Below, piece by piece: positions 794-17,725 of a stretch of DNA of 29,563 bases. The stretch is taken from positions 1 to 29,563 of the IMG/VR virus record IMGVR_UViG_3300021378_000106. One strand, written 5' to 3'. Each line of letters begins with the position of its first letter. The stretch's first letter is position 1. The translations under genes were made by a program, and so were the position numbers. Origin of the DNA: a virus. The notes beneath the pieces are model-generated. The model did no database searches. It had not been told where the DNA came from and worked only from the letters and a program-made list of their open reading frames with translations.

Positions 794-3700
794 TTATTTT
801 AGTGAATCTTTTCTTTTTTTACTTTTGTTTAAAGCCTCTAAGGACATTATTTTATTAATCCTATCTTCTTCTTTAGTTAATTTATTTATTTGTTTTTTAC
901 TTAATTTATATTTATTAAATAGTATGGCAGTTTGTTCTTCCTTTTTAAGTTTTTTAAGATCATATCTTCGTAATTCATCTCCGCTTAAATCTCCTCTTTC
1001 TTCTTTTATTTTGTTTTCTTTTTTAATATTTTTTCTGCGTTCTTTTTCTTTTTCGTATTTTTCATCACCGCTAGGATCATTAGCGGATTGTTCTAATTGC
1101 CATTCAGGATATCCTAGTAATAAAAAAGGTTTATAAGCATCTTTAGTTTCTTCCTGTAGCATGTCGATTAAATTACTTGCTTTAGCAATAGCTCTGTCTA
1201 AAGGAACGTTAGTAAGAGCAGAAGTTAAATCCCCTACAGCTCTAACACCGGGTAACTTAAGCAAATCACCTTTAGAAACGCCTTCTTTATCAAACATAAA
1301 TCCTGCATTCCACTCAAAAGCATCAACACCTCTATAAATTTTACCAATTTTACTTCCTATGGGGGGAGAAATATTTGCTAAATTTTTAACAATATACTTG
1401 CTATAATTAGGCTTTTTCTTTTCAGATCTTTCTATAAGTGTTAATCCAATATCTTTTGCCGCAGAAACAACAGCCCCATACAGACCCATACCTCTTAATA
1501 AAGAGTTTGACATAGAATTAGCTACATTAATAGCTTTATCTTTTTTAGATGTATCCTCATTCTCATCATCATCAAATGCCATTGCAAATAAACCTTGTTG
1601 TAAAAATGAAAAAATTGCATTTTGCAAAAATCCATAATAAGCTATTTTAGCTAAGTTTTCTTTTCTACTGCCACGTCCATTTTTAAGGTCTAGAATAGCT
1701 TTTTTTATTATTCTAGCATATTGTTGAGGAGTGTTAGCAAAAGCTAATATATAGCGCCCTATTGGCTGAGACTGTTCTTTACTAATTTTATCAGGTCTAC
1801 TTGATTGCTGAGATTCTTGAGCTATCTCTGTAAATTCCAGCATTGCCTGTTTTTTAGCATCAGCGGGTTTTACACCTTGTTTTATTAATGCGTCGTATTT
1901 AGTTCTATAAAAAGAAGCTCCTCCAAAAGATATCGCAAGCGAATCAGCATATTTAGTAGGGGCAAACCCAGCTTTTAGTAATTTTGCAATAACCCCCTGC
2001 ATTCCTTGAGTAGCAGCTACATTAGCTAAGTCAGCTTCGTTAACATTAAGTTTTAATCCATCACGTCTATCAACTAAAAAGTCACTATTCCAAAGCATAA
2101 CAAAATCTGACCAAAATTGCTTTTGATTTGCAAATGCTTTACCTGCCGCAAAAATATTATTTTCTCTAAAGTTAAGAAAGTTAGTTGCAGAAATCAATTG
2201 AAGCACAGCAGATCTTGAATTAAGGAACATAATATTACCAACAGAATTAGTAAGAAAATCACTCCAAGCATTAGTTTCCTCCATTCCTTTGTCAACTTTA
2301 GAAATTCTATTTCTACCTGTTTCCATACGTGTTAATGAATTTTTTAACGCGCTTACATATTTATTTCCAAAGGCTACCTGTAATTTATTTAAGTTTTCAG
2401 GAGAAAATATTACATCAACATTATTTTTCCATACTGTAAGTAATTCTTTTCTTCCAGTATTATTTAATGCGCTCATTAAATCAGTAGTAATAGTTCCTCC
2501 TGCCCAATTGTTTTTTGGCTTAGTATCTTCCCCTGTGTTTAATCTAGATAATTCTTGAGCAAACAATCTAAGCTCAGGATTTTCTAAAATTTCGTTTAAC
2601 ATTATTTTTTTATTCTCTTCCTTAAGATTAGGAATTTCCATACCCTTTTGATCCCACATATAAACTCTTACTGCATTTTCTTTTGTAAATGGACTTTGAA
2701 TTATATCTCCATTTTCGTTTTCATAAGTAATTTGTTCTTTAAGATCATCAGGAATTATATTAAGATCTTCTTTTAATCTTTTATATTCTCTTCCAATTTT
2801 ATTACGAGCCATTTCTAACCCGGTCATAGCTTTAGCGTATGGATTTAATAAATTCTTTTTGTAAAAATTCATCATTTGTTCCCCTTTTTTACCTTTAGGT
2901 AAGGTTTTGTATAATAATCCTACAAAATCTTCTGCTGAAGGAGGTATAAAAATATCAAGTTTACCTATTCTAGAACCTATTTTTTGAGCTTCAGAAGCAT
3001 CAAATGTTTCAAATGATTCTATACCGGTTTTATATTCTAAAAATTTATTAAACATGACATTCATTTTCTTTTCTATGCCTCTGCCATTGCTATACACATC
3101 TGGATTAAATTGTTGTTTTTTAGATTCCATTAAAACATTTTTTCCAGCCGCAAGATCTTTAACTGTCATAGGATCTAACCCAATTTGAGGAGATCTACTT
3201 AGCTCATTTGAAATCATTTTATTAGTAAGTCTTAATATACTTAATAAAGTTTGAGCTTCTTTACTTTTTGGTTTTGCTACTAATTTAGGCTTGCCATCTA
3301 CTATTTTGCCACCTATTGATTTTAATAGTTCCTCATAAGCCTTTTTAGGTGTACTTGCATCACGGTTACCAGTACCTGTAGTTTTTCTAACTATATTATC
3401 ATAACTAAAATCTTGCAAGTTTCTACCTACACCCGTTGCTTTACCTTGATATCTTCCGGGCCTACCATTAGCATATCTGTAATCAGCATTTGATAAAGTT
3501 GGTAATATTCTAAAAAATGTTCTTAAAATACTTTGGTTAGCTACCCTTTCAAATTTAATTCCTTTATCGGTTAATTCTTTTTCGTAAGCTTCTGCATCGC
3601 CGTTTGAATCGTCTTTTCTAACTTCTTTCATTTTACCATCTTCAAAAACTTTAAAAACACCGTATTCTTTAGTTATTTGTTCAAAAGCTCTAGGATATTG

Positions 3701-6700
3701 TTGTGCGTTTAAATTAGGAGACCGAGATATTCTTTTGTCAAATATTGCCGCGGGAAGACCAAACATTTCGCCCATTACTTCAGCTGTAAATCCGGGTAAT
3801 TTTTTAAAGTTTTCCAAAGGAGAATTACCTTCATTTTCTTCCCAAAATTTAATTGCTGCCTCCATTGCTTGCTCATATCTAGTATCACTAGCTAATATAG
3901 AGGATATTTTAACTTTACCTAAAGGATCAATTATAGTTTTTCCATTAACTTTGACGTCAGTATCTTCAGTTGCCATATTAACTAAAGCATCTTCCCCTTT
4001 AGTTATACCATCTTGCTCAACACCTAATCTTTTTGCTAAATTTCTTACACGAAGACCTCCTCTTTGAAATATTATATCTTCTAAATCATTTGTTATAGTT
4101 TCGCCTTCTCTATTAACTGTTTTAGGTTTAAACTCGTTAATAACCATAGTTAGCATATCCGATTCCATTGATGCTTTAAAAAAGTCTCTGCTTATAGCCT
4201 CTTTAGCTTCAGCGGGTATTTTATCATAAAATAACTTAGTGAATATAGTATTAGCCTTTCCCAAGGGAATTTTTAAATCTTCCGCTATTTCTTTTTCTAG
4301 TCTTATTAATTCAACAGGTTTAGGAGATCTAGGCGGGTTTGCCTCTATTTTAGCTTTTGCTTCAGCTTGTTTAGTTCTAGATAATTTTTTTTCATCTTTA
4401 GGTATTTTGTCTAAAGCTTCTTGTTTAAGTTTTTTATCTCTAGCCTTGCTCTCGTCAACAAGCTTTTTTGCTTTAGCAACTTTAATTTCAATAGGGGCTT
4501 TTTCTTTAGTCTCTAATGAATATCTTCTAGTAGATTTATCCTTTTTTTCTCTTTTTATTTTGGGTAAGTCAGAAACGGGTTTAATTTCTCCGCCTGACTG
4601 AGCTCTAGCCTCGGCTTCATCCAAAATTTCTAAAGCTTTTCCAACTCTGGTCTCTAAAGCGGGGTTGTCAGGATCATTGTTGTAGGCGTCTAAAGCATCG
4701 TTGTATCTGTCAGTAGCCTCTTCTACTGTTAATTTTAAAGAAGCCTTAGGTTCTTTTTTTCTTTTCTCAACTTTTTTCTTAGAAGTTTCAGGTTCTTTTG
4801 CCCGCTCAATCTTTCTTAGCTCATCAATTTTATCTTGGATATTTGCTTCATTAATCATCTGTGTACCAGGATCTATAGTGCCATCTTGCATATAAATTTC
4901 TTCCTGTTGCATCAGTAATGATCTCATTTCAGGCGAAGCATTTTTCATAGATTCTTTAACGCCTTTTAGTTTATTCACAATTCTTTGGTCAACCTTAGAA
5001 ATATCTATTTTCTCTATAGTTTCTTTAGCTTTAGCTATATCTATAGACCCATCTTTTATTCCTTTAGCTAATTTAATAGCAAAAGCAGCAAAATCATCTG
5101 TTCCTCTAAAATCATAATCATAAACATCTTTACCAACTGCATCTTGGACCATTTGGGCCATCATACCATTTAATGGCAAATTATTTGACGATGTTAAGTC
5201 AATACGTTTTTCATTTACCATTTCTAAAAATTCCATGAAGGCTTCTTCAGATACACCCACTAAATTGTAGTTGGGGTCATTTTCATAATTTTGCATTGCA
5301 TCTTCCATTCTAGCCGAAAGAGAAGAATTATTTACTTTTAGCCATTCTCTTATTTGGTAGCCTAGCTCATATAATTGACGCCCTTTACCTCCTTCAAAAA
5401 TTAAACCTACGGTTCCATGCGCAATTTCGTGTTCCTGTACAAATTGTTTGTTATTTTCAGCTTCAGCTTCAATAACAACATAAGGAACAGTACTTCCGTC
5501 TTGAGTTGTTACACTTGCCCCAGCATTTCCCCTTTCTATAGAAGTTATAACTTCTTCTTTTGTGGATTCAGTCAAGTCAGGTCTTTCGTCCATGTAGTCC
5601 ATAGCCTCTTCTTTGGTTCCAAAAACTTGAAGGTTTGGGTTTATTTTTTTATTCTGCTTAACTCTTTTCCAAGACTGATCTATATTGTATTGTTTAGTAG
5701 CTTCTAATACTACTTCGTTATTTTTTGTAGAATATATTTTGCCAGAGTTTTCTCTCTCAAGTTTAGCTCTAGCTTTTTTTATGTAATTATTATAAGTTAT
5801 AGGGTTAGACACTTCCATAAGAGCAAATTCATTTCTAAATCCAGAACCTATATATAATTCTTGTGCTGCTTTAACTGATGCAAATTTTTGTATTTTATCG
5901 TTTATTATACTTTGATCAACGCCTTTGGTATTAGATAAAATAGCAATTTCTCTTTTTAATGTAGAAGCTATTGTTTGTAATTTTGCAAAACTTTCTGATC
6001 CTCTTTGTGTTATTCCGTTTAAAGGTTTTTGTAAAATTTCAACAGCTGCATCATTAGCTTGTTTTATAGCTTCATTTAATGATTGTTTTAAAGTTTTTTC
6101 TGCGACCTTAGCATTAAGAAGCACATCTCCCGTCAATCCTTTCATTTGTGACTGATGATTAGACAAGCTTTTCTTAGCAGCTAAAATAGCATCAGCATTT
6201 TTACTTAAAGTTTCTATTTCAGAATTATTAGCAAAAGCTCTAGCGTTAATGCCCTTAAAAAAAGGTAAACCAGAAAATACAAAACTAAATCCAGTACTAG
6301 AAACGGCTACATGCTTTATGTTTTCTAAAGGATCATTACCATAAATAGCGTTTTCAGCAAAGTTAGTTGCAATTTCTCCTACGTTTTCTAATAGCACATC
6401 GTTTACTACGTCTTTATATTGTGACTTTACAAAGTCTTTAACCCCTAAAGCATATTGCTGAGCCCCATCTACACCAAACTTTTCGCTCGAAAAAAATTGT
6501 TTTTTTGCTTTTCTTAATATAGGAATAGTAGTCAATTGTGTAGGTATGGCATTAGCTAATCCTATTCCGGCCATAGTTAAAAATTGATTTACTCTTTTGG
6601 TATCTCTACCCATTAATGCGTCTTTAAAAGCCATTTCCATACCAGCTTGCCCGCCCGTATACACCCCAACGGTTAAAGCACCGTAACCACCAGTTGCCAT

Positions 6701-8560
6701 CATAGCCATAATAACGGGCGCTTGAGCGGAAACCTCTTGTAAAAAGAACTTACCAAAATTTTCAGGAGAGCTAAATCCCTCATCTACACTAACATCTCTA
6801 ACGTAACCTCTTTTACTTACATCTTTAGCTTTTGAATATCTGTTAGCTATAGCGTCAACACTTTTCATAGAAGTATCGTATATGTCCGCAACAGAAGGAG
6901 CGGCTTCGCCCATATTAGCTGCTGCTGCAGCCCCTCCAATTATAGATGCAACACCAGTACCTAGTGCAGTAACTGCATATCCCGTTCCCGTAATTATATC
7001 TGAAACACCCCAACCAAAAGTACTAAATGCTTTTTCAGCAAGACTATAGTTAAGTGCATTAGCTCTAGATATAGCCAAGGCTTCGGGCATTTTATCTGCT
7101 ATAGTTGCATTATTAGCTACCGTATCGCTATAAGTTTTATACGTAGCATTGTAATTAACCTGCATGCTCTTTAGCTGATCATAATTAGCTTGAGTTATAG
7201 GTATATCGTTCCAAGTACCAATAGTTTCTTCCCCCACTTCTCCCCATTGTATACCATCTATAATAATAGGTTTGCTGGGATCTTCTTTAAAAGAATTTAG
7301 TTTATTAAGATCTTTGGCCATGCTATCTAAATCAATTTCTAAAGATTCAGTTAGCAAGGTATTGTCTTGAAAATCAGTAACTAATTTGCTGTTTTTTAAA
7401 TTTTGAAAAACAGTAAACTCATCTCTAAGCTGTGGATATTGAGATAAAAACGTTTCTCTTTTTTGCCCTATTAAATTTAAGCGCTCAGCCGCAACCATTT
7501 TTGCATAGATGTCAGCTTTAGCTTGGTCTTCAGCGTCTTGGTAAGACTTAAAGGAATTTTTAAGAAGAAGCTTTTCTGTAGTTTCTTTTATTTCTTTCTC
7601 GTAAGGCTGAACAATTAATTCCATAGTTTCACCTTTACCTTTTCTTATTGTTTCTGTTTTAGGAGCAAACATACTTTCTAATGTACCTAAAGATTTTTCA
7701 GCTTCTTTATTTGTGACTTGGAATTCTTTTATTAAAGGAGACTCAGCAAAATTTTCTGCTTTAACCCTTAAAGTAGCAGCATCTTGAAGGTTCATAGTAT
7801 TAGCTATAAAATCCGCAAATTCTTTTCCTTTTCCTTTAGATTTTTTAGTAGTCCCTGATCTATCTGATAACGTTTCTAATTCAAAAGTTGTTTTTTCTTT
7901 TGTTTCTGGATTAATATGTGTTACTATAGTACTGAACTTAGGGTTGTCATACTTGCCCCCACGATTACCTGAATCTACAGTATATTCATCTAAGCTTTTG
8001 AATTGCGTTTCTAAAGCTCTAATTGCAGTGTCTCCATAACCATTAAAGGTTTCTTCCCAAACATCCGCATTAACTATTTCTCTACCAGGCTTTTCTTTAT
8101 CTTTAAAGTTTGATATAACTATCTGATCTAATTCGCCCCCTTGTGTGGTAGCATCTTTAGGCAAAGTCTGAGCTTCTGTTCCAAACTTTTTAGCATATTC
8201 ATCAAAAGATTCAGGATAATTTCCTGTGCCTGCATATTGTTCTAAATATTTATCCTCGTATACGGTAGTGCCGCTTTTAAACTTAATGTATCGTAATCCC
8301 GAAAAACCATCTTCCGATATTAATTCCGTATCTTGTGCTGGTGGTATTTCCGATACTACATCCGCACTCTTTGCAGCATCTGGGAGAAAACCCGGTTTTC
8401 CTATAATACTATTTTGTTCTTCAGCAATAGTAGCTTCCTCTGTTTTTGGATCCTGTACTAGTTCTACAGTATCTTCTGAGCTTAGTGTAGCTAAATATTC
8501 GTTTGCTTCTTCTTGCGACTCAAACTCGTTTAGTATTCCGTTTATTAAGTACTTAACCAT
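794..8560 (-). CDS. Giant internal virion / polyvalent protein with HExxH metallopeptidase motif (2588 aa)
   Basis: This is the largest protein here and third in the ejection-protein order, in the place of T7 gp16 but twice as long. Visible parts: an N-terminal VKYLINGILNEFES hairpin; several Gly/Ala-rich hydrophobic segments at about 515-770, likely to enter membranes; a peptidase-like region with EHEIAHGTV (HExxH at 1044-1048) and, some 60 residues on, SEEAFMEFLE (1104-1113) that could supply the third zinc ligand; a Lys/Glu-rich linker at about 1250-1415; a helical region to about 2100; and a C-terminal region with QPIGRYILAFANTPQQYAR (2265-2283), which I recognise from giant proteins of marine phages. 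It fits the polyvalent proteins that enter cells with phage DNA. Peptidase activity is inferred. No DxDGD RNA polymerase motif was found. Confidence 0.85.
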   Translation of the reverse strand: MVKYLINGILNEFESQEEANEYLATLSSEDTVELVQDPKTEEATIAEEQNSIIGKPGFLPDAAKSADVVSEIPPAQDTELISEDGFSGLRYIKFKSGTTVYEDKYLEQYAGTGNYPESFDEYAKKFGTEAQTLPKDATTQGGELDQIVISNFKDKEKPGREIVNADVWEETFNGYGDTAIRALETQFKSLDEYTVDSGNRGGKYDNPKFSTIVTHINPETKEKTTFELETLSDRSGTTKKSKGKGKEFADFIANTMNLQDAATLRVKAENFAESPLIKEFQVTNKEAEKSLGTLESMFAPKTETIRKGKGETMELIVQPYEKEIKETTEKLLLKNSFKSYQDAEDQAKADIYAKMVAAERLNLIGQKRETFLSQYPQLRDEFTVFQNLKNSKLVTDFQDNTLLTESLEIDLDSMAKDLNKLNSFKEDPSKPIIIDGIQWGEVGEETIGTWNDIPITQANYDQLKSMQVNYNATYKTYSDTVANNATIADKMPEALAISRANALNYSLAEKAFSTFGWGVSDIITGTGYAVTALGTGVASIIGGAAAAANMGEAAPSVADIYDTSMKSVDAIANRYSKAKDVSKRGYVRDVSVDEGFSSPENFGKFFLQEVSAQAPVIMAMMATGGYGALTVGVYTGGQAGMEMAFKDALMGRDTKRVNQFLTMAGIGLANAIPTQLTTIPILRKAKKQFFSSEKFGVDGAQQYALGVKDFVKSQYKDVVNDVLLENVGEIATNFAENAIYGNDPLENIKHVAVSSTGFSFVFSGLPFFKGINARAFANNSEIETLSKNADAILAAKKSLSNHQSQMKGLTGDVLLNAKVAEKTLKQSLNEAIKQANDAAVEILQKPLNGITQRGSESFAKLQTIASTLKREIAILSNTKGVDQSIINDKIQKFASVKAAQELYIGSGFRNEFALMEVSNPITYNNYIKKARAKLERENSGKIYSTKNNEVVLEATKQYNIDQSWKRVKQNKKINPNLQVFGTKEEAMDYMDERPDLTESTKEEVITSIERGNAGASVTTQDGSTVPYVVIEAEAENNKQFVQEHEIAHGTVGLIFEGGKGRQLYELGYQIREWLKVNNSSLSARMEDAMQNYENDPNYNLVGVSEEAFMEFLEMVNEKRIDLTSSNNLPLNGMMAQMVQDAVGKDVYDYDFRGTDDFAAFAIKLAKGIKDGSIDIAKAKETIEKIDISKVDQRIVNKLKGVKESMKNASPEMRSLLMQQEEIYMQDGTIDPGTQMINEANIQDKIDELRKIERAKEPETSKKKVEKRKKEPKASLKLTVEEATDRYNDALDAYNNDPDNPALETRVGKALEILDEAEARAQSGGEIKPVSDLPKIKREKKDKSTRRYSLETKEKAPIEIKVAKAKKLVDESKARDKKLKQEALDKIPKDEKKLSRTKQAEAKAKIEANPPRSPKPVELIRLEKEIAEDLKIPLGKANTIFTKLFYDKIPAEAKEAISRDFFKASMESDMLTMVINEFKPKTVNREGETITNDLEDIIFQRGGLRVRNLAKRLGVEQDGITKGEDALVNMATEDTDVKVNGKTIIDPLGKVKISSILASDTRYEQAMEAAIKFWEENEGNSPLENFKKLPGFTAEVMGEMFGLPAAIFDKRISRSPNLNAQQYPRAFEQITKEYGVFKVFEDGKMKEVRKDDSNGDAEAYEKELTDKGIKFERVANQSILRTFFRILPTLSNADYRYANGRPGRYQGKATGVGRNLQDFSYDNIVRKTTGTGNRDASTPKKAYEELLKSIGGKIVDGKPKLVAKPKSKEAQTLLSILRLTNKMISNELSRSPQIGLDPMTVKDLAAGKNVLMESKKQQFNPDVYSNGRGIEKKMNVMFNKFLEYKTGIESFETFDASEAQKIGSRIGKLDIFIPPSAEDFVGLLYKTLPKGKKGEQMMNFYKKNLLNPYAKAMTGLEMARNKIGREYKRLKEDLNIIPDDLKEQITYENENGDIIQSPFTKENAVRVYMWDQKGMEIPNLKEENKKIMLNEILENPELRLFAQELSRLNTGEDTKPKNNWAGGTITTDLMSALNNTGRKELLTVWKNNVDVIFSPENLNKLQVAFGNKYVSALKNSLTRMETGRNRISKVDKGMEETNAWSDFLTNSVGNIMFLNSRSAVLQLISATNFLNFRENNIFAAGKAFANQKQFWSDFVMLWNSDFLVDRRDGLKLNVNEADLANVAATQGMQGVIAKLLKAGFAPTKYADSLAISFGGASFYRTKYDALIKQGVKPADAKKQAMLEFTEIAQESQQSSRPDKISKEQSQPIGRYILAFANTPQQYARIIKKAILDLKNGRGSRKENLAKIAYYGFLQNAIFSFLQQGLFAMAFDDDENEDTSKKDKAINVANSMSNSLLRGMGLYGAVVSAAKDIGLTLIERSEKKKPNYSKYIVKNLANISPPIGSKIGKIYRGVDAFEWNAGFMFDKEGVSKGDLLKLPGVRAVGDLTSALTNVPLDRAIAKASNLIDMLQEETKDAYKPFLLLGYPEWQLEQSANDPSGDEKYEKEKERRKNIKKENKIKEERGDLSGDELRRYDLKKLKKEEQTAILFNKYKLSKKQINKLTKEEDRINKIMSLEALNKSKKRKDSLK

Positions 8561-8578
8561 GTTTTTAATTTAATTGTT
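8561..8578 (-). promoter_or_regulatory. Leader of the giant gene with repeated 14-mer
   Basis: The minus-strand ACAATTAAATTAAA (8577-8564) lies three bases from the ATG at 8560. It is identical to the 14-mer in the leader of the gene starting at 29495, and nearly identical to that at 11288. It may be an A-rich ribosome recruitment element, as used by Bacteroidetes instead of a Shine-Dalgarno. Confidence 0.45.
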
Positions 8579-10078
8579 TTATTGTTTATTAATTATTGCA
8601 TTAGCTATTTTTCTAGCTTTTACTCTATTTTTACTACCGTAACCTTGAGTTCTTAATATTAAGTTAGTAAGGGAGCTAGCATTACTTATATCATATATAT
8701 CTGTTTTGTCTACATTATCGCCCGGTAAGGATTCTGTTATGGTTATATTATTACCCTCAGATGTTACATCTACATTGTATTTTGAGCCGGATAGTGCTTC
8801 CATGCCAGAAGAAATATTTAATAAATCTGTAACATTAACAGTTTCAGCATTTTCAACTGCGCTAACCATGCTATTTACCATTTTATTTATTTGATCATCT
8901 GTATATTGAGCTGCAAATTTATACCCGCTTTTATCATCTTTTGACCCTGCGGGCGGCTTAAATTCTTCTCTGTTTTCTTCTCTATAAAATCTTCCAGTAG
9001 GCTCTCCGTTTTCGTCTACTTCTTTTGTAATTTCGGTTCCATCAAAAAATAAAGCTTCTGTAGGTTTGTTTACTGCTTCTTGTTGTTCATTATCACTTAA
9101 AGCTCTAAATTCGTCAGCAGTAAGATCTATATTAAATTTATCTAATAAATGTTGTTGTACTTGCTTATTATCATTTTCGTTTCGCAAAGCTATTACATTA
9201 CTTGCAGCAAGCTCGCTAACCGATCCTTTTATTACTTTGCTATTAAGATACTGTTTGTTATAAGAAACTTTTTTACCTTTATCATTGACTCCAGGCTCAA
9301 GTACGTATTCGTTTTCTTGGCCGTCTGTAAGAGTCGTTAAAAACTTTTTTCCGCTTTCATCATAAATTAATTTATCTTGAGAGGCAATTTGATCTCCTAC
9401 AGCATCAGGAGCTGTAACAGTAAATCCATTAGATCTACCAGGAAAATCTTCTGCATTTATTTCATAATAATTACCTTGATCATCTTTAGCCCACGCAACT
9501 AGCTGCCCATCCTCTTTATAGTTCATACCTGCCTCATATCCTTCAGCTCCGCCTATACCCATTACAAAAGCTTGTGATTCTGCAGTAGTTCCATCTTTTC
9601 CTTCCGTAAAAAATTCGGTACGTCCAGCTTTAGGCCAATTATCCACCATTTCGCCTAGAATAGGTATACTACCTAACATTGATTCAGCTAAACCATTATA
9701 AGTGTTAGTTTTTCCTAGTAAAACAGCTAATTCTTCAGAAAGTTCGGGGTTAGCATCCCCATAAAGTTGTGCCTTTTTAATTTCATATATTCTGTCTAAA
9801 TTAATATTATTTGCTATTGTCATTTGCTCACGCATTGACTTTGATAATCCTTTTATTCCTTTATTAAATGCAGCAGAATCTTGAGCTTTTAGATTACCTA
9901 GCTCAATCATTTTTTCGCCTAATAGCTTATTTTCAGCATCTCTTTTTTCACGCTCTTTTCTTCTTTGAGCACCTAATGCATTTATGCCTTGGGCTATTGA
10001 AGCTCCAAAGTTCTCAAAGCCTTTAGCTAAAATCTCGCCGGATCTGTCTTGTATTATTTGTGGATTTCTATAACTCAT
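8579..10078 (-). CDS. Internal virion (ejection) protein, T7 gp15-position (499 aa)
   Basis: This is a hydrophilic protein between the gp14-like and the giant gp16-like genes. Residues about 1-115 are helical and basic (GAQRRKEREKRDAENKLLGE), with an amphipathic ASIAQGINALGAQ start. The middle (about 150-260) is beta-rich with Gly/Asp turns (GQLVAWAKDDQGNYYEINAE). The C-terminal part is charged, with EEFKPPAGSKDDKSGYKFA and a final basic NRVKARKIANAIINKQ. I do not recognise a catalytic site. Length is below T7 gp15 (about 750 aa). Function as a component of the DNA ejection tube in the periplasm is inferred from gene order only. The leader is A/T, with a 17-bp gap to the upstream neighbour and 18 bp to the next gene. 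Confidence 0.68.
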   Translation of the reverse strand: MSYRNPQIIQDRSGEILAKGFENFGASIAQGINALGAQRRKEREKRDAENKLLGEKMIELGNLKAQDSAAFNKGIKGLSKSMREQMTIANNINLDRIYEIKKAQLYGDANPELSEELAVLLGKTNTYNGLAESMLGSIPILGEMVDNWPKAGRTEFFTEGKDGTTAESQAFVMGIGGAEGYEAGMNYKEDGQLVAWAKDDQGNYYEINAEDFPGRSNGFTVTAPDAVGDQIASQDKLIYDESGKKFLTTLTDGQENEYVLEPGVNDKGKKVSYNKQYLNSKVIKGSVSELAASNVIALRNENDNKQVQQHLLDKFNIDLTADEFRALSDNEQQEAVNKPTEALFFDGTEITKEVDENGEPTGRFYREENREEFKPPAGSKDDKSGYKFAAQYTDDQINKMVNSMVSAVENAETVNVTDLLNISSGMEALSGSKYNVDVTSEGNNITITESLPGDNVDKTDIYDISNASSLTNLILRTQGYGSKNRVKARKIANAIINKQ

Positions 10079-10095
10079 TTTATATTTTTTAAATT

Positions 10096-10836
10096 TTAAG
10101 TAAAACTGTCTGGATTGCTTATTACCGAACTTGCTATATTACCAATACCCGATATCATTCCAGCTGTTGATGCAGCACCAGCTTGATTTGCTTGAGCTTG
10201 ATTTGCGCTAGCCTGCGTAAGACCTGCGGCCATTCTGTCAAGCTTAGCTTGATCTCTTCCTTCTTGAGCTTGAAATTCAAAAGCTTTGCCTTGTGCCTGT
10301 GCCATCTGAGCTCTACCTCCTTCGGATATTTGTATTCCTTGTATTCTTGCTTTTTCAGCCATTTGTTTAGCTTGTAAATCAGCTTCACCTTGGGCGGCTA
10401 ACTTTTCATTTTGAGCTTCTTGTTGCTCTATATTAGCAGAAACATCTTTTTTACTTCTTGCGGCAGCATTAGCTAAAGCGGTAGCACCACCAGCACTTGC
10501 TCCGGTAGCCTGTAGAGTATCTAGTGTTGCAGCTAAAGCTAAATCAGTTTGTTCCATTTGTATTTCTGCAGCGCTTGTAGCCACACCTAAATCCGCGTAA
10601 GGGTTTGACAATTCTCCACTAAGATCTTTAGCAAAACCAGCTAAAGATTTAACATCAGAATAAGGATTTATAACATCTTGCCTGTTATTTTCAAATAAAG
10701 TTATTGCTCTATTCATTTTTTTCTTTTCCTCTTCAGCCGCTGCTGCTTGTCTTTTAGCTTTTTTATTGCCAAATATTCCACCAATAATTTGAGTTGCCGC
10801 TCCTATACCAGCCGCTGCTAACGCTATTCCTCCCAT
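10096..10836 (-). CDS. Internal virion (ejection) protein, T7 gp14-like in size and plan (246 aa)
   Basis: The N-terminus is a Gly/Ala/Ile-rich hydrophobic stretch (MGGIALAAAGIGAATQIIGG) followed by a basic patch and long Ala/Gln/Glu-rich helices (for example KLAAQGEADLQAKQMAEKAR). A Gly/Ser/Ala-rich C-terminus (GAASTAGMISGIGNIASS) completes it. This layout is that of podovirus gp14-type ejection proteins, which form a channel in the outer membrane during infection. The family-level match is by composition and position, as no conserved motif is diagnostic. It is first of three ejection-type genes in the T7 order (small, medium, giant). It starts at ATG 10836, inside the end of the cupin gene. 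A 77-aa reading frame overlapping it on the same strand is a shadow. Confidence 0.75.
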   Translation of the reverse strand: MGGIALAAAGIGAATQIIGGIFGNKKAKRQAAAAEEEKKKMNRAITLFENNRQDVINPYSDVKSLAGFAKDLSGELSNPYADLGVATSAAEIQMEQTDLALAATLDTLQATGASAGGATALANAAARSKKDVSANIEQQEAQNEKLAAQGEADLQAKQMAEKARIQGIQISEGGRAQMAQAQGKAFEFQAQEGRDQAKLDRMAAGLTQASANQAQANQAGAASTAGMISGIGNIASSVISNPDSFT

Positions 10837-11288
10837 AATTTTTCTTTTTTATTATATTCTTCCATAGTTATTGAAAAAAAATTGTTTTCTACTTCTTCCA
10901 TGTTTCTTGTGTCTGTAGGATTTGCTATTATGTTTATCCAAACACAATCTTCTACACACTTAATTAATCTTTTAGTTCCTTTTAAAGAGTACGACCAACA
11001 AGGAGCTATATGCTCTACAGTTTCATTGTCGGCCTGTACTATTACTTTTCCAGATAATAAAAACCAAAAATGATTAGTATGGTGCAAAGCACTTATAACC
11101 ATAGTATCAGCTTTCATTTTCATTTGACGCATATACAATCCGTCGGTAAAATTATTAGTTATTGGAAATTCTTCATTGTTAACTAAATTTTTACCATCTC
11201 CATATATTCCTTCTTCATTACTTTCTATAAGTGCATTTTGTAATACTTCTAATTGTTTTATAAAATTAATTGATAATTCATTGTTCAT
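10824..11288 (-). CDS. Cupin-fold phage protein (154 aa)
   Basis: Residues about 50-120 show the cupin beta-barrel pattern: GLYMRQMKMKADTMVISA, then HHTNHFWFLLSGKVIVQ at 69-85, then IAPCWSYSLKGTKRLIKC and VWINIIAN. The HHxxH (69-73) followed by a LLSGKV turn resembles cupin motif 1, where His residues bind a metal. The motif 1 glutamate and the motif 2 histidine are not evident, so the metal site may be incomplete. Similar small cupin proteins sit among tail and ejection genes in many phages, with unknown role. Possibilities are a virion component, a scaffold for tail assembly, or a sugar-binding or modifying protein. It overlaps the next gene by 13 nt, so translation is probably coupled to the ejection proteins. 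The stop is TAG. Confidence 0.68.
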   Translation of the reverse strand: MNNELSINFIKQLEVLQNALIESNEEGIYGDGKNLVNNEEFPITNNFTDGLYMRQMKMKADTMVISALHHTNHFWFLLSGKVIVQADNETVEHIAPCWSYSLKGTKRLIKCVEDCVWINIIANPTDTRNMEEVENNFFSITMEEYNKKEKLWEE

Positions 11289-12898: not shown

Positions 12899-15800
12899 TT
12901 ATACAGGTGTTTTTATTCTATTAAATCCGGATTCTTGTGCTCCAGTTGGTTCAGCACCTTGATAATTTATAAAAGTAGCCCCTGTATTAACGCGTGCCTG
13001 TATTGGATTGGTCACCCTAACCCCAGATTGGTCTAACTCTAATGAAAATGTTGCTTCTAATAAATCTACTCCTTTCCAATCGGTAAGATTACTAGGTGCT
13101 ACTGGTAAATCTACGTATGCACGATTAAGCTGAACTCCTATATAAGGGGTTTCTGCAGGGGGTACATAAGGAACTTGCATTTGGGTATCTGTAAAAAATT
13201 GATTAACATATTCTGCATAAGGAGTTTCAGCATACAAAACATTCGTTGTCATAGGCTCCTCATTTACGCTATCGCTTCCAGGAGCAGACCTAAAATATTG
13301 ATACTCATTATTATCACCCCATGTTTGATCAGGCGCTATATTAACACCTTGCCATGGAACACATTTTGGATAATGTAAATCAGCACAGTTAATCCACCCT
13401 ATGCCTGGATACGAAGTTGTATCTCCTGTTGTTTGTTTAAACTCCTTAATTATAAAAACATATTCGATTCCTACAGCATTACTGTTTTCCGTTACTGCCA
13501 AGTAATCAAAACATCTTAAGGTTTGAACACTTTTATGTGTTTCTTGTCCACCAATTTGTTCATTAGACAAAGTAGCCCAAGAACTCTGAGATCCGGTTGG
13601 TCCGTTTGGTAGAAGATATTGAGGAGCATTCCATCTAGGCGTTTGAACTACTGACTTATTATATTCTACAGTTCTTGGAATTAGTTCCCACTCAGAAGTG
13701 CTTTCATCAGCAAAAACGTATCTATAGTAATATTGTATATCTTTTACCGCAATATTAGACTGATTTAAGCCTTGACTTGGTTCGTTTTCTTGCCTAAGGT
13801 TTGCAGTTATAGCTACAACTCCTGATTTATGACAGTCTGTTCCAATTCTATTCCACTCATTATTAGGCGGAATGATAGCATCAAAAACAGAATTATCATT
13901 TGTAATATTTAAGTAAAAGTCAGTTGGAGAAATCCCGGCGGATATATACCATAAACCCGTTATAGTTTGTGGAATATTAGTAAACGGATTAGTAGTGTAT
14001 ATATATTCTGGGGAAATTCCAAAAGTTGGTGCAACCACACAAGTTTCGCTGAGCGCTTCTTCGTTAACCACTGCGTACCCAAGAGTTATAGGAGTAGTAA
14101 ACTCAACATACAAAGTTCCATAAGGATCATTACTAGGCAAAGAAGAGTCTCCGTTTGCATCTGTTACACGTATTGTGATATTATAAAGAGCAGAAGTATT
14201 TCCTCCAAAAGTAACTCCATCTATTATATCCCCTGGTATTGCTTGAGTGAGTTCACCGGTAGCCGAATTCATTTCCCAATTATCTGGTAGATCCTGAGGA
14301 TTTTGTATTGTATATTGTAATTGTAATGTATTATTAGTGGCTCCTGTTCCATTTTGAGGATTAGCAGCAGGCCAAGGACTTCCGGTATCACTATAACCAG
14401 GTATTATTACTCTAGTTTCTCTAGATGTAGATATGGCAGGAATTCCAGCTGCTATTGTAGGGTTTAAATTTTTTAAAGCTCCAAAACCGCCCACTACTCC
14501 TGGAATAGGAATAGTACTAATATCTCCATCAGCAGTCGTTATTTTTACTGAAAAAGAATAAACGTCTGTTATTCTACTAGAATCTATAAATACCAATGGG
14601 CTAGCCCCTATGTATCTTATTCTAAATTGGCCTGCAAAACTACCTGAGCCTGGCCGAAGATCAAATAAGCCAGTTACTGTTTCTCCGTCTCCATTTGTTG
14701 TAGCTATTAATTCTGCAGTTGTAGCTACTGCAAAAACCTCTCCTGAGGAATTTACAGGTTCAAAGTAACCAGTTACAAAAGTATTTTGTATAGTTTGTTC
14801 GGTAAAATCCCATGTTAAATTTATAAAAGATGTAGCACCCCCCGTTCCACTAAGAACATCCGCGTTTAAATCAACAATTAATCCTTCACTTGTGGTTTCC
14901 CAATAAATATCTAATAATGATTCTACCGGAGCTGTTTCATATATTGCTAAGTAGGGTAGCATGTTAGATGTATCTAAAGGGTTATTAAGGTTGTCGGCAT
15001 CGTAAGTGATACCTCCTGAAGTTTGTCGTTCTAAAACAAAGTTTAAATCAGTAGCCCCTATAGATTTATTTACCGTAGATATCCTACATATTAAAGGGTT
15101 TGTATCTATTTGATAAAAAACTAAATTGCCATTAACGGCTCCCGTATTAAATGCTTTTAAAGGATCGTACAATTGATCATTATCTGTGGACAAATCCGCA
15201 TACCCCATATTAACTTCCTTGGCTCTAGCTATAGCTGTTGATGTATGAGAAATTGCAGTTTTACCTTCAGAATCTATTCTAGCATAATATTGCTTATTAA
15301 ATGTAGACGACCCTGAAATGCCTGTTACTGCGTCATAAGTACCCACTGTCATTATATTGGTTACTCTACCAAATAAGGTAACTGAACTTCTGTATTGCTT
15401 TTGATCGGGCCCAACTTCTGCTAAATCTCTAGGAATTTTATTTATATTGTCATTAAATAAAACAGTAAATGCTGTTTTGTTAGTTTCATCATCGGGAAAT
15501 ATTCCATTGTCAATTCCTCCAGGCTCAGGTGGGTGTTGAGGCCCATTAAGCGCCCCAGATTGCCCTGGATAACCATTAAGTATTCCAGGTAGGTATACAT
15601 TATAATATTCTTGCTGCGTTTGTTTTACAACTATTTTATAACTATACCAGCCTAAATCATTTATAGTATAAGCAAATTTTAAATCAGGCTGTCCAGCAGG
15701 AAGATCATCTTGTCTTAAATAAACATCGCTGACTTGTCCATCTGTAGTAGCCTGCCATTGATTTTGGACAGGATTAGTTTCTGTTACTGTTAAAACTTTA

Positions 15801-17221
15801 ACGAAGTCTTGATAAGCCCCTCTAAGATAATCCCCCACTCTAGGTATATTATTATTGTTATTATTTGGAGGAGTAACATTAAGCCTAAAATTGTATATAT
15901 TGTTAACTATATTATTACCAGACAAAGCTACTGCATAGCCTTCTCCGTTTCCTGAACCAGCATCTTGTTTTACCGCATAAAGCCCAGGAGTCCCTAGCGC
16001 TAAATTTTTTGTAGAACTTATTTCTGAATTCACTAACACCATTATAGCGTCTCCAAACCAGTCTTTAACAGTAGTATCAGGGGAAGAAATATCATAAGGA
16101 CTATATATTGTAGAACCAAAGTAAAATTGACCATCACTAATTATTCCTTTATCCACAGAGGATAATATTACAGGTGATTGTCTACCAAATTTATCGGCTA
16201 ATATAAATCCTACTTGATAATTTCTATTTCTTTTTACGGAATGGTTAGGGTACTCAATCCAATTATTGTATTTTCCTGTGCTACTTTTTTTAGATATTCT
16301 ACAGTTATAATTTATATTTGCAGGCGGAGTGTGTTGATCCCTATAATTACCATAAATTATTCTGTTTCCTGAGCTTTCTTGAGTAAATGCTCTTATAGGA
16401 ACTTTGTCATAAACCCTAACGGTTTGTGCTTCGGGCAGAGTTTTATAAGGTTTACGAGATTGATAATCATAAGTATAATAATTATTAATTCCGCTAGACC
16501 CGGCTATTGTTCCTGCTGAAATACTTTCTAAAACTTTAACGGCTACAGCATCACTTTCTCTAAATAGTATTTCTACTTCTTTTATTTTGTAATCATTAGC
16601 TATTCTACTCGCACTAGTAGGCAATGGAATAACTAACCCTATATTCTGAACTTGATTTTCCATAAAAGAAACAATGGTAGATTGATAAGCTGCATCTTCA
16701 TCTCCATTTAAAAAATATCCATCTTGCTTAGGAATGTACGCAATTTGAGTAAATGGAGCCATTAAAGAATATTCATTGTCGTCGTACTTAAATCTATAAC
16801 TAAATCTAACAAACTTATCTTCCAAATAATCTGGATCTCCAGGCCATGTGTCGTCGCCTGTTTTGTTTGTCATTGTAGACATAATTAAAGAAACATAAGT
16901 ATTAGCAATTAGCGCTGCGGAAAAAGATGGGGAGACGTTTACTCTTGTTTCATTAAATGCACTAACATATTGAACTCCAGTAACTTTTATATGATCTAAG
17001 CCTGTTATACTAGGAGTTTGCTCAGCAGAAACTACAGTAGCCCCGACAAAAGGAGTTATAGAAGCTTCAACATCCCCTGCTAAACTAAAGTATATGGTTC
17101 CACCGCCTGTTGTTACCAAGTTTATTCTATTGTATAATTTTATTGCTTGATAAGGGCTATATTTGGCTACAGATATTTGGTGTTCCTGCGTGTAATAATC
17201 TTCGGCTGCTTGACCTCCCAT
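12899..17221 (-). CDS. Large tail structural protein, main part of the split protein (1440 aa)
   Basis: Residues 8-27 (DYYTQEHQISVAKYSPYQAI) fit directly behind the end of the preceding 163-aa product. The rest is almost entirely beta-structured, with very few cysteines, and is rich in Asn, Thr, Gly and Tyr, as in podovirus tail nozzle proteins. A cadherin/Ig-like domain is suggested at about residues 905-1035, with NSATGELTQAIPGD and YNITIRVTDANGDSS. Around 760-790 there is an LDIYWETTSEGLIVDLN segment that recurs in marine phage tail proteins. The end is Pro/Tyr-rich (VPYVPPAETPYIGVQLNRAY). It could be the nozzle/muzzle and may include receptor-contacting parts, since no separate tail fibre gene is recognisable. 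The exact role is inferred from position and composition. Its TAA stop lies one base from the next ATG. Confidence 0.8.
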   Translation of the reverse strand: MGGQAAEDYYTQEHQISVAKYSPYQAIKLYNRINLVTTGGGTIYFSLAGDVEASITPFVGATVVSAEQTPSITGLDHIKVTGVQYVSAFNETRVNVSPSFSAALIANTYVSLIMSTMTNKTGDDTWPGDPDYLEDKFVRFSYRFKYDDNEYSLMAPFTQIAYIPKQDGYFLNGDEDAAYQSTIVSFMENQVQNIGLVIPLPTSASRIANDYKIKEVEILFRESDAVAVKVLESISAGTIAGSSGINNYYTYDYQSRKPYKTLPEAQTVRVYDKVPIRAFTQESSGNRIIYGNYRDQHTPPANINYNCRISKKSSTGKYNNWIEYPNHSVKRNRNYQVGFILADKFGRQSPVILSSVDKGIISDGQFYFGSTIYSPYDISSPDTTVKDWFGDAIMVLVNSEISSTKNLALGTPGLYAVKQDAGSGNGEGYAVALSGNNIVNNIYNFRLNVTPPNNNNNNIPRVGDYLRGAYQDFVKVLTVTETNPVQNQWQATTDGQVSDVYLRQDDLPAGQPDLKFAYTINDLGWYSYKIVVKQTQQEYYNVYLPGILNGYPGQSGALNGPQHPPEPGGIDNGIFPDDETNKTAFTVLFNDNINKIPRDLAEVGPDQKQYRSSVTLFGRVTNIMTVGTYDAVTGISGSSTFNKQYYARIDSEGKTAISHTSTAIARAKEVNMGYADLSTDNDQLYDPLKAFNTGAVNGNLVFYQIDTNPLICRISTVNKSIGATDLNFVLERQTSGGITYDADNLNNPLDTSNMLPYLAIYETAPVESLLDIYWETTSEGLIVDLNADVLSGTGGATSFINLTWDFTEQTIQNTFVTGYFEPVNSSGEVFAVATTAELIATTNGDGETVTGLFDLRPGSGSFAGQFRIRYIGASPLVFIDSSRITDVYSFSVKITTADGDISTIPIPGVVGGFGALKNLNPTIAAGIPAISTSRETRVIIPGYSDTGSPWPAANPQNGTGATNNTLQLQYTIQNPQDLPDNWEMNSATGELTQAIPGDIIDGVTFGGNTSALYNITIRVTDANGDSSLPSNDPYGTLYVEFTTPITLGYAVVNEEALSETCVVAPTFGISPEYIYTTNPFTNIPQTITGLWYISAGISPTDFYLNITNDNSVFDAIIPPNNEWNRIGTDCHKSGVVAITANLRQENEPSQGLNQSNIAVKDIQYYYRYVFADESTSEWELIPRTVEYNKSVVQTPRWNAPQYLLPNGPTGSQSSWATLSNEQIGGQETHKSVQTLRCFDYLAVTENSNAVGIEYVFIIKEFKQTTGDTTSYPGIGWINCADLHYPKCVPWQGVNIAPDQTWGDNNEYQYFRSAPGSDSVNEEPMTTNVLYAETPYAEYVNQFFTDTQMQVPYVPPAETPYIGVQLNRAYVDLPVAPSNLTDWKGVDLLEATFSLELDQSGVRVTNPIQARVNTGATFINYQGAEPTGAQESGFNRIKTPV

Positions 17222-17233
17222 AATTTTATTATA

Positions 17234-17725
17234 TTATTCCGCTGTAGTAGCTAAATTAATGTTAATTTTTCTAGGCTGATTTCTATTATCAGTCCAAAAT
17301 AATAAATTTTCAATTAAATTTATTCCTATTATACGATTAGTAGTAGAAAAATTTAAAAATTCTCCTCTAACTAAAGCTCTGTATTCTTGAGTAATATTAT
17401 TATAAACGTATATATAATGATTTGTTCCCGCGGGAGCATCTGTTGGATTGGATGGGTCAGGATCTGTATAGTCTGTTAAAAAAACAAACAACTGATCAGT
17501 AGCATTGTTTTGTTTAATTCCTATAATAGTGAAACCGGTCCCTATATTTGTGGTGCTTATTAATGCATTACCTATAATATTTTCTAAGGCACCAACATCG
17601 TCGTCTTCGGATCTACCAACAGATATATTCCGAGCATCTCTATATTCGCCGTTAGGCAATATTCTATCGTCAAGATCTTTATTCATCTTAGACTTTAGAA
17701 ATGTGTTTTTTATTTGTTGAGCCAT
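17234..17725 (-). CDS. N-terminal part of a split tail structural protein (163 aa)
   Basis: The sequence starts KNTFLKSKMNKDLDDRILPNGEYRDARNISV and continues through DVGALENIIGNALI. It ends ENLLFWTDNRNQPRKININLATTAE. I recognise this as the usual beginning of a long tail protein in marine Bacteroidetes and crAss-like phages, where the 'FTDNRNQPRKIN' strand is normally followed in the same polypeptide by a 'YYT-x-(E/D)-(D/H)QISVAKY-P' segment. Here a TAA intervenes. The matching continuation opens the next gene, in the same frame, after only four more codons. It therefore looks like the first module of a beta-propeller or nozzle-type protein, made as a separate chain. There is no signal peptide. 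Whether the two chains assemble together is inference. Confidence 0.75.
   Translation of the reverse strand: MAQQIKNTFLKSKMNKDLDDRILPNGEYRDARNISVGRSEDDDVGALENIIGNALISTTNIGTGFTIIGIKQNNATDQLFVFLTDYTDPDPSNPTDAPAGTNHYIYVYNNITQEYRALVRGEFLNFSTTNRIIGINLIENLLFWTDNRNQPRKININLATTAE

Follow-up and report, generated by a model that had tools for sequence, protein, structure and literature searches.

HExxH domains are common in the giant proteins of phages, and to our knowledge almost none of them has a known substrate. Among the systems closest to the protein described here, the vRNAP of phage N4 comprises a membrane-spanning N-terminal domain, an RNAP, a C1 domain with an HExxH and a large helical C2 domain (PMC12633501), and is packaged unprocessed, at full length (PMC5512222). 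The zincins of polyvalent proteins have been proposed to process their own chains, and DdrB of phage P1, which has a C-terminal MPTase, is processed before encapsidation (PMC5512222). By description, our protein can also be likened to the Crassvirales cargo proteins C1 and C2, large proteins of phages with Bacteroidota hosts that are presumed to be ejected together with the genome, one of which has a transmembrane helix (PMC10136315).

Here we describe a giant gene of IMG/VR virus record IMGVR_UViG_3300021378_000106, a 29.6 kb stretch of DNA (29,563 nucleotides) that was analysed whole and is called the window below. Its product very probably carries a zincin-like metal site, and we consider it moderately probable that the reading holds as a whole, namely a zincin-bearing giant ejection protein that acts by cleavage, a predicted activity, during entry. 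With N4 gp50 it shares its place as the giant last gene of the virion block beside two smaller ejection-type genes, an N-terminal membrane-like part, an HExxH domain ahead of a large C-terminal part, and freedom from Cys, of which the 3342 N4 vRNAP residues examined also contain none. It differs from gp50 in having no recognised RNAP domain, and sequence similarity between the two is limited to the HExxH motif; the window protein may therefore be likened to N4 vRNAP by analogy of layout and a shared motif, minus the polymerase. Scans of the window protein against Pfam, PHROGs and NCBIfam gave no family match to a single-subunit RNAP. A deeply diverged RNAP in the giant protein was considered and rejected, there being no family match and a single DxDGD, at an unlikely place in the relative L161.

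The domain resembles the zincin-like MPTases of polyvalent proteins (Iyer et al. 2017, PMC5512222) in its HExxH helix and later helix with an invariant Glu, in the variable inserts between both helices, in residing in giant multidomain phage proteins made with the virion genes, and in the other enzyme-like domains found in relatives. It differs from them in that neither the window protein nor its domain matches MPTase-PolyVal (PF18818), a family also absent among the 25 listed for 57 domains, and in that the catalytic and membrane-like parts of the window family are often exchanged or diverge together.

Position and layout of the giant gene

The window portal shares 50% identity with that of a Manatee Spring podovirus and 41% with those of the Flavobacterium elemo phages, followed in similarity by Maribacter, Cellulophaga and Tenacibaculum phages, and the best explanation is that the phage is a podovirus of flavobacteria, with Elemovirus and Pervagoviridae/Pachyviridae as relatives. 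A scan of bacterial genomes returned three contigs only, in metagenome-assembled genomes and one of them filed as an archaeon, and so provides no firm host link. In the window's relatives the giant gene stands at the end of the virion block, behind smaller virion-type genes, and gp123 of Cellulophaga phage phi18:3, which corresponds to it by synteny, was annotated from MS/MS of virions. The order in the window of giant gene, 499-aa gene and 246-aa gene is that of N4 gp50, gp51 and gp52 (Table 1). Immediately beyond them, at 10824-11288, lies a gene for a small protein (154 aa) that by eye looks like a cupin; it is flanked by virion genes, at a place where relatives have similarly small genes.

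The initial annotation had called the giant reading frame a DNA-ejection protein of several segments, and the frame is indeed open for 2588 codons from an ATG start on the minus strand, with the hydrophobic Gly/Ala segments, the charged linker and the conserved C-terminal region all where they had been placed. The Gly/Ala-rich block, whose hydropathy peaks at residues 529-550 and 616-634, is a possible membrane or channel segment. Several breaks in inter-phage identity begin at the place equivalent to the linker in relatives. The zincin is the only domain recognised in the window protein itself, for which Pfam, PHROGs and NCBIfam scans gave no significant domain.

Table 1. Features of the giant gene and its two companions (coordinates are window positions; residues are those of the giant protein)
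Feature	Position	Strand	Evidence
Giant protein P0001, putative virion/ejection protein, 2588 aa, 0 Cys, 5 His	794..8560	-	ORF call; position syntenic with phi18:3 gp123
Conserved N-terminal cap, residues 17-150	8111..8512	-	51% identity to G008 over ~145 residues
Gly/Ala-rich hydrophobic block, residues 510-770	6251..7033	-	Hydropathy; blastp region common to phi18:3, elemoE and Gundel homologues
Zincin-like domain, residues 972-1161	5078..5647	-	HMM match; AlphaFold2; relatives' matches to Pfam M78
HEIAH, residues 1044-1048; putative zinc ligands His1044 and His1048, putative general base Glu1045	5417..5431	-	
Glu1106, putative third zinc ligand	5243..5245	-	Invariant in 65/65 aligned domains
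Charged linker, residues ~1200-1440, directly after zincin	4241..4963	-	Inter-phage identity breaks
Conserved C-terminal module, residues 1826-2490	1091..3085	-	Alignment with relatives
499-aa companion gene, Cys-free	8579..10078	-	Position of N4 gp51
246-aa companion gene, Cys- and His-free	10096..10836	-	Position of N4 gp52; weak phrog_805 internal virion protein match, E 0.0045

The products of the giant gene and of its two neighbours (window positions 794-10836) are devoid of Cys and have 5, 1 and 0 His respectively, unlike terminase or portal, and the Cys content across the giant-protein family is 0.024%. The only His residues of the giant protein are at 215, 750, 802, 1044 and 1048, two of the five falling in the motif. 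Absence of Cys together with scarce His may be a signature of proteins that are threaded through the tail, and synteny and composition together make it a good inference that the giant protein is an ejection protein.

Conservation and fold of the zincin-like domain

Searching phage records by tblastn with the window protein gave a short match to Gundel_1 only, and a scan of viral contigs with this single protein gave no relatives; relatives were then reached via the portal and afterwards via an alignment of the C-terminal part, an alignment designated A1 being too diverged to serve as a query. The resulting family set consists of 80 environmental loci (L104-L183), drawn by the C-terminal module (A2) and blind to the motif. 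It comprises 77 unique proteins with 191,471 residues, of which 72 are full length (>1800 aa), the window protein counted in.

The motif EHEIAHGTV claimed at residues 1043-1051 is present and gives H1044-E1045-x-x-H1048, and SEEAFMEFLE, claimed about 60 residues downstream, occupies residues 1104-1113. From the window protein's own composition ~0.0008 HExxH would be expected by chance; the motif occurs in 63 of the 72 unique full-length proteins, against ~0.15 expected over all 77 unique proteins. Identity between the window domain and those of relatives is 10-34%, and in alignments of 57 rows (the window and 56 loci) the H, E, H and Glu1106 columns are the only invariant ones. A further alignment of 65 rows is made up of HExxH-bearing domains, including elemoE and G014, so that both His and the first Glu are fixed by the choice of rows and Glu1106 is the free test; this column is Glu in every one of the 65. 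Thus, of the two residues that had been put forward as third ligand, Glu1106 is conserved and Glu1110 is not. His1044, His1048 and Glu1106 are, from the pattern of conservation, probable zinc ligands and Glu1045 the probable general base, and the domain is accordingly one that is predicted to bind zinc.

AlphaFold2 models of residues 954-1179 (pLDDT 91.5, pTM 0.86) and 972-1120 (pLDDT 94.0, pTM 0.84) were obtained, the order of elements being a short strand, two helices, two strands, the HExxH helix, two helices and the Glu helix, with Glu1106 inside helix 147-163 of the model. In these predicted structures the order of helices and strands agrees with that given for the zincin core of polyvalent MPTases (PMC5512222). 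Foldseek searches of the PDB with the 226-residue model and the trimmed 149-residue model gave nothing significant; in BFVD the search matched giant phage proteins weakly, some of these being named polyvalent. The gluzincin-like character ascribed to the site by the initial annotation therefore draws support from the conserved HExxH and Glu1106 and from the order of elements, and none from the PDB search.

Among family members, 14 of 57 match Peptidase_M78 (PF06114) at E values up to 1, the best being 1.1e-7, and one (L125) passes the curated cut-off with 23.1 bits against 22; in members scanned singly the match is confined to the stretch around HExxH. There are also weak member matches to SprT-like, DUF3267 and Zn_peptidase_2. 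The window domain itself has no match to a Pfam zincin family, Peptidase_M78 included. Its likeness to Peptidase_M78 / ImmA-IrrE lies in a strand followed by the HExxH helix, whereas its putative third-ligand Glu is placed ~58 residues past HExxH in a long-helix arrangement.

A profile comparison of the window-family zincin with 11 Schitoviridae C1 domains (A6) aligned the HExxH helices of the window family and the N4-type C1 in register, with a score of 32.4 against at most 15.5 in 40 column shuffles. Once the four catalytic columns were masked this score fell to 15.4, so that the match to the N4 profile is motif-driven and constitutes no independent evidence of homology.

Loss and exchange within the family

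Whether homologues might lack the HExxH residues had been raised as a check on the site, and the picture is mixed, the motif being kept as counted above and absent in 9 of the 72 full-length relatives. L104, L106, L107, L108, L122 and L147 have [LI]EEL[FS]H, in which the first His is replaced by Glu and the later Glu is kept; these EExxH proteins are set apart by a single branch (support 99/93; recovered in 99% of bootstrap trees), adjoined by L124 with HEVSH, and are a natural candidate for a pseudo-peptidase or an altered metal site. L157, L159 and L173 have no HExxH and no convincing domain match, and HExxH is absent from the cultured phages phi18:3, phi38:1 and Panino. Such relatives and cultured phages imply that the site is dispensable for ejection itself and, because one clade swapped its first His for Glu and others lost the domain, zincin activity is, to judge from the sequences, accessory and not essential. 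At L171 (5170-11362), where no zincin is detectable, the sequence for the giant protein is divided between two ORFs of 1335 and 734 aa that overlap and differ in frame, which is either a natural split or a frameshift.

The polyvalent character attributed to the protein is borne out by several unrelated domains in the giant proteins of relatives, and by its position in the late virion block. An AAA_33/Zeta kinase and DUF3293 are found above cut-off, GNAT-like and LPD14 domains below it, together with a HAD-like motif. This HAD-phosphatase-like motif, FDFDDTLA, lies ahead of the C-terminal module in 18 relatives (at 1966 in L104, 1954 in L140, 2436 in L163 and 2064 in L175, in protein coordinates, and in 14 more), and it is followed in L163 and L175, ~35 residues on, by the start of a P-loop kinase (AAA_33/Zeta, E ~3e-10) that gives the impression of an insertion into the HAD domain; the window protein has neither motif nor kinase. 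DUF3293 and a weak GNAT acetyltransferase match are located upstream of HExxH in two relatives from cultured phages, L094 (elemo gp18, residues 1323-1392) and L084 (Gundel gp074, residues 896-966). The protein of the Manatee Spring phage (L093) has two HExxH sites (HEFGH), at residues 1621 and 2506, the second being closer to that of Tenacibaculum phage Gundel_1 than to that of the window.

Pairs of relatives with 90-97% identical C-terminal modules share a zincin identity of only 12-22%, and in L124/L140 and L112/L118 an identity of ~20-35% through the end of the zincin rises to 60-100% directly past it. About a third of 74 pairs with a diverged zincin and a similar C-terminus break within 90 residues past the domain, these pairs not being independent (by eye they amount to some six or seven separate cases) and having been chosen in a way that excluded breaks ahead of the zincin. 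Such comparisons suggest that the front half, zincin included, is often exchanged or diverges as a unit, a mosaic pattern that fits a peptidase at a joint and a front half adapting to the host.

Possible roles of the zincin in entry

Under the mechanism we propose, the middle of a giant ejection (‘cargo’) protein would be a diverged polyvalent-type zincin metallopeptidase, its zinc coordinated by His1044, His1048 and Glu1106 and Glu1045 serving to activate the water. The giant protein would be packaged and then pass out as a threaded chain, together with the DNA or before it, after which the zincin would refold and act. The most likely cut would fall in its own chain, in the adjoining charged linker, and so separate the membrane part at the N-terminus from the C-terminal part; second in likelihood would be cleavage of a host protein. 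What the computations show is the reading frame, the motif, the conserved quartet of residues, the topology of the predicted fold, the position by synteny and the mosaic pattern; from these we infer zinc binding as well as ejection, catalysis and substrate. Given a zincin-like metal site, we favour a zincin that acts after ejection over one that acts in the capsid. Cutting of its own linker and cutting of host proteins are close rivals; we incline towards the former in view of where the domain lies, of the linker and the break points, and of the own-chain proposal made for polyvalent zincins (PMC5512222). A more specific version, which as a whole we hold to be rather unlikely, places a self-cutting zincin at the joint between an exchangeable, membrane-associated and host-adapting N-terminal half and a conserved C-terminal half, as a polymerase-free counterpart of N4 vRNAP that is common in marine flavophages. 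If this were true, phages could exchange their front halves while a built-in protease continued to release them.

Alternatively, the zincin may be an injected effector that cuts a host protein, for example of defence or of the envelope, after ejection. The extreme divergence and exchange of a domain that keeps its catalytic residues would suit such a role, as would its presence in most but not all relatives and the further enzyme-like modules that relatives have in this protein, all of which are expected of host-specific effectors. However, it is the whole N-terminal half that diverges and not the zincin alone, which could equally follow differences between host envelopes, and we regard the effector as possible, if somewhat unlikely. 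Processing of the giant protein in the capsid during maturation, before ejection, has a precedent in P1 DdrB with its C-terminal MPTase, but appears improbable beside the full-length packaging of N4 vRNAP (both PMC5512222), which by analogy would argue against processing before packaging, at least in N4; the MS/MS data from virions, moreover, concern phi18:3 gp123, a protein without HExxH. More doubtful still is that a former peptidase has been kept purely as a folding or assembly module. The well-supported EExxH clade does retain the domain, which such a structural role would explain, yet the loss of the first His is confined to that one branch, and 65 domains that otherwise differ greatly all keep the four catalytic residues. 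That an unrelated helical domain carries the HExxH by chance, as the fruitless PDB search might suggest, is hardly credible against the frequency of the motif, the unvarying Glu1106 and the Peptidase_M78 matches of relatives.

Self-cutting after ejection, the reading to which we lean, and its rival with a host target would both give a testable enzymatic step in genome entry to abundant, little-studied marine flavobacterial phages. One family supplies natural versions that are intact, EExxH or free of the domain, and relatives infect cultured hosts (the elemo phages of Flavobacterium sp. BAL314 and the Tenacibaculum phage Gundel_1), so that the substrates of ejected zincins can be sought directly. 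Elsewhere in the window, at 12899-17725, a large tail/virion protein is present as two ORFs (1440 and 163 aa), where the elemo, Manatee and phi38:1 phages have a single ORF of ~1324-1551 aa; this is either a real split or a sequencing frameshift.
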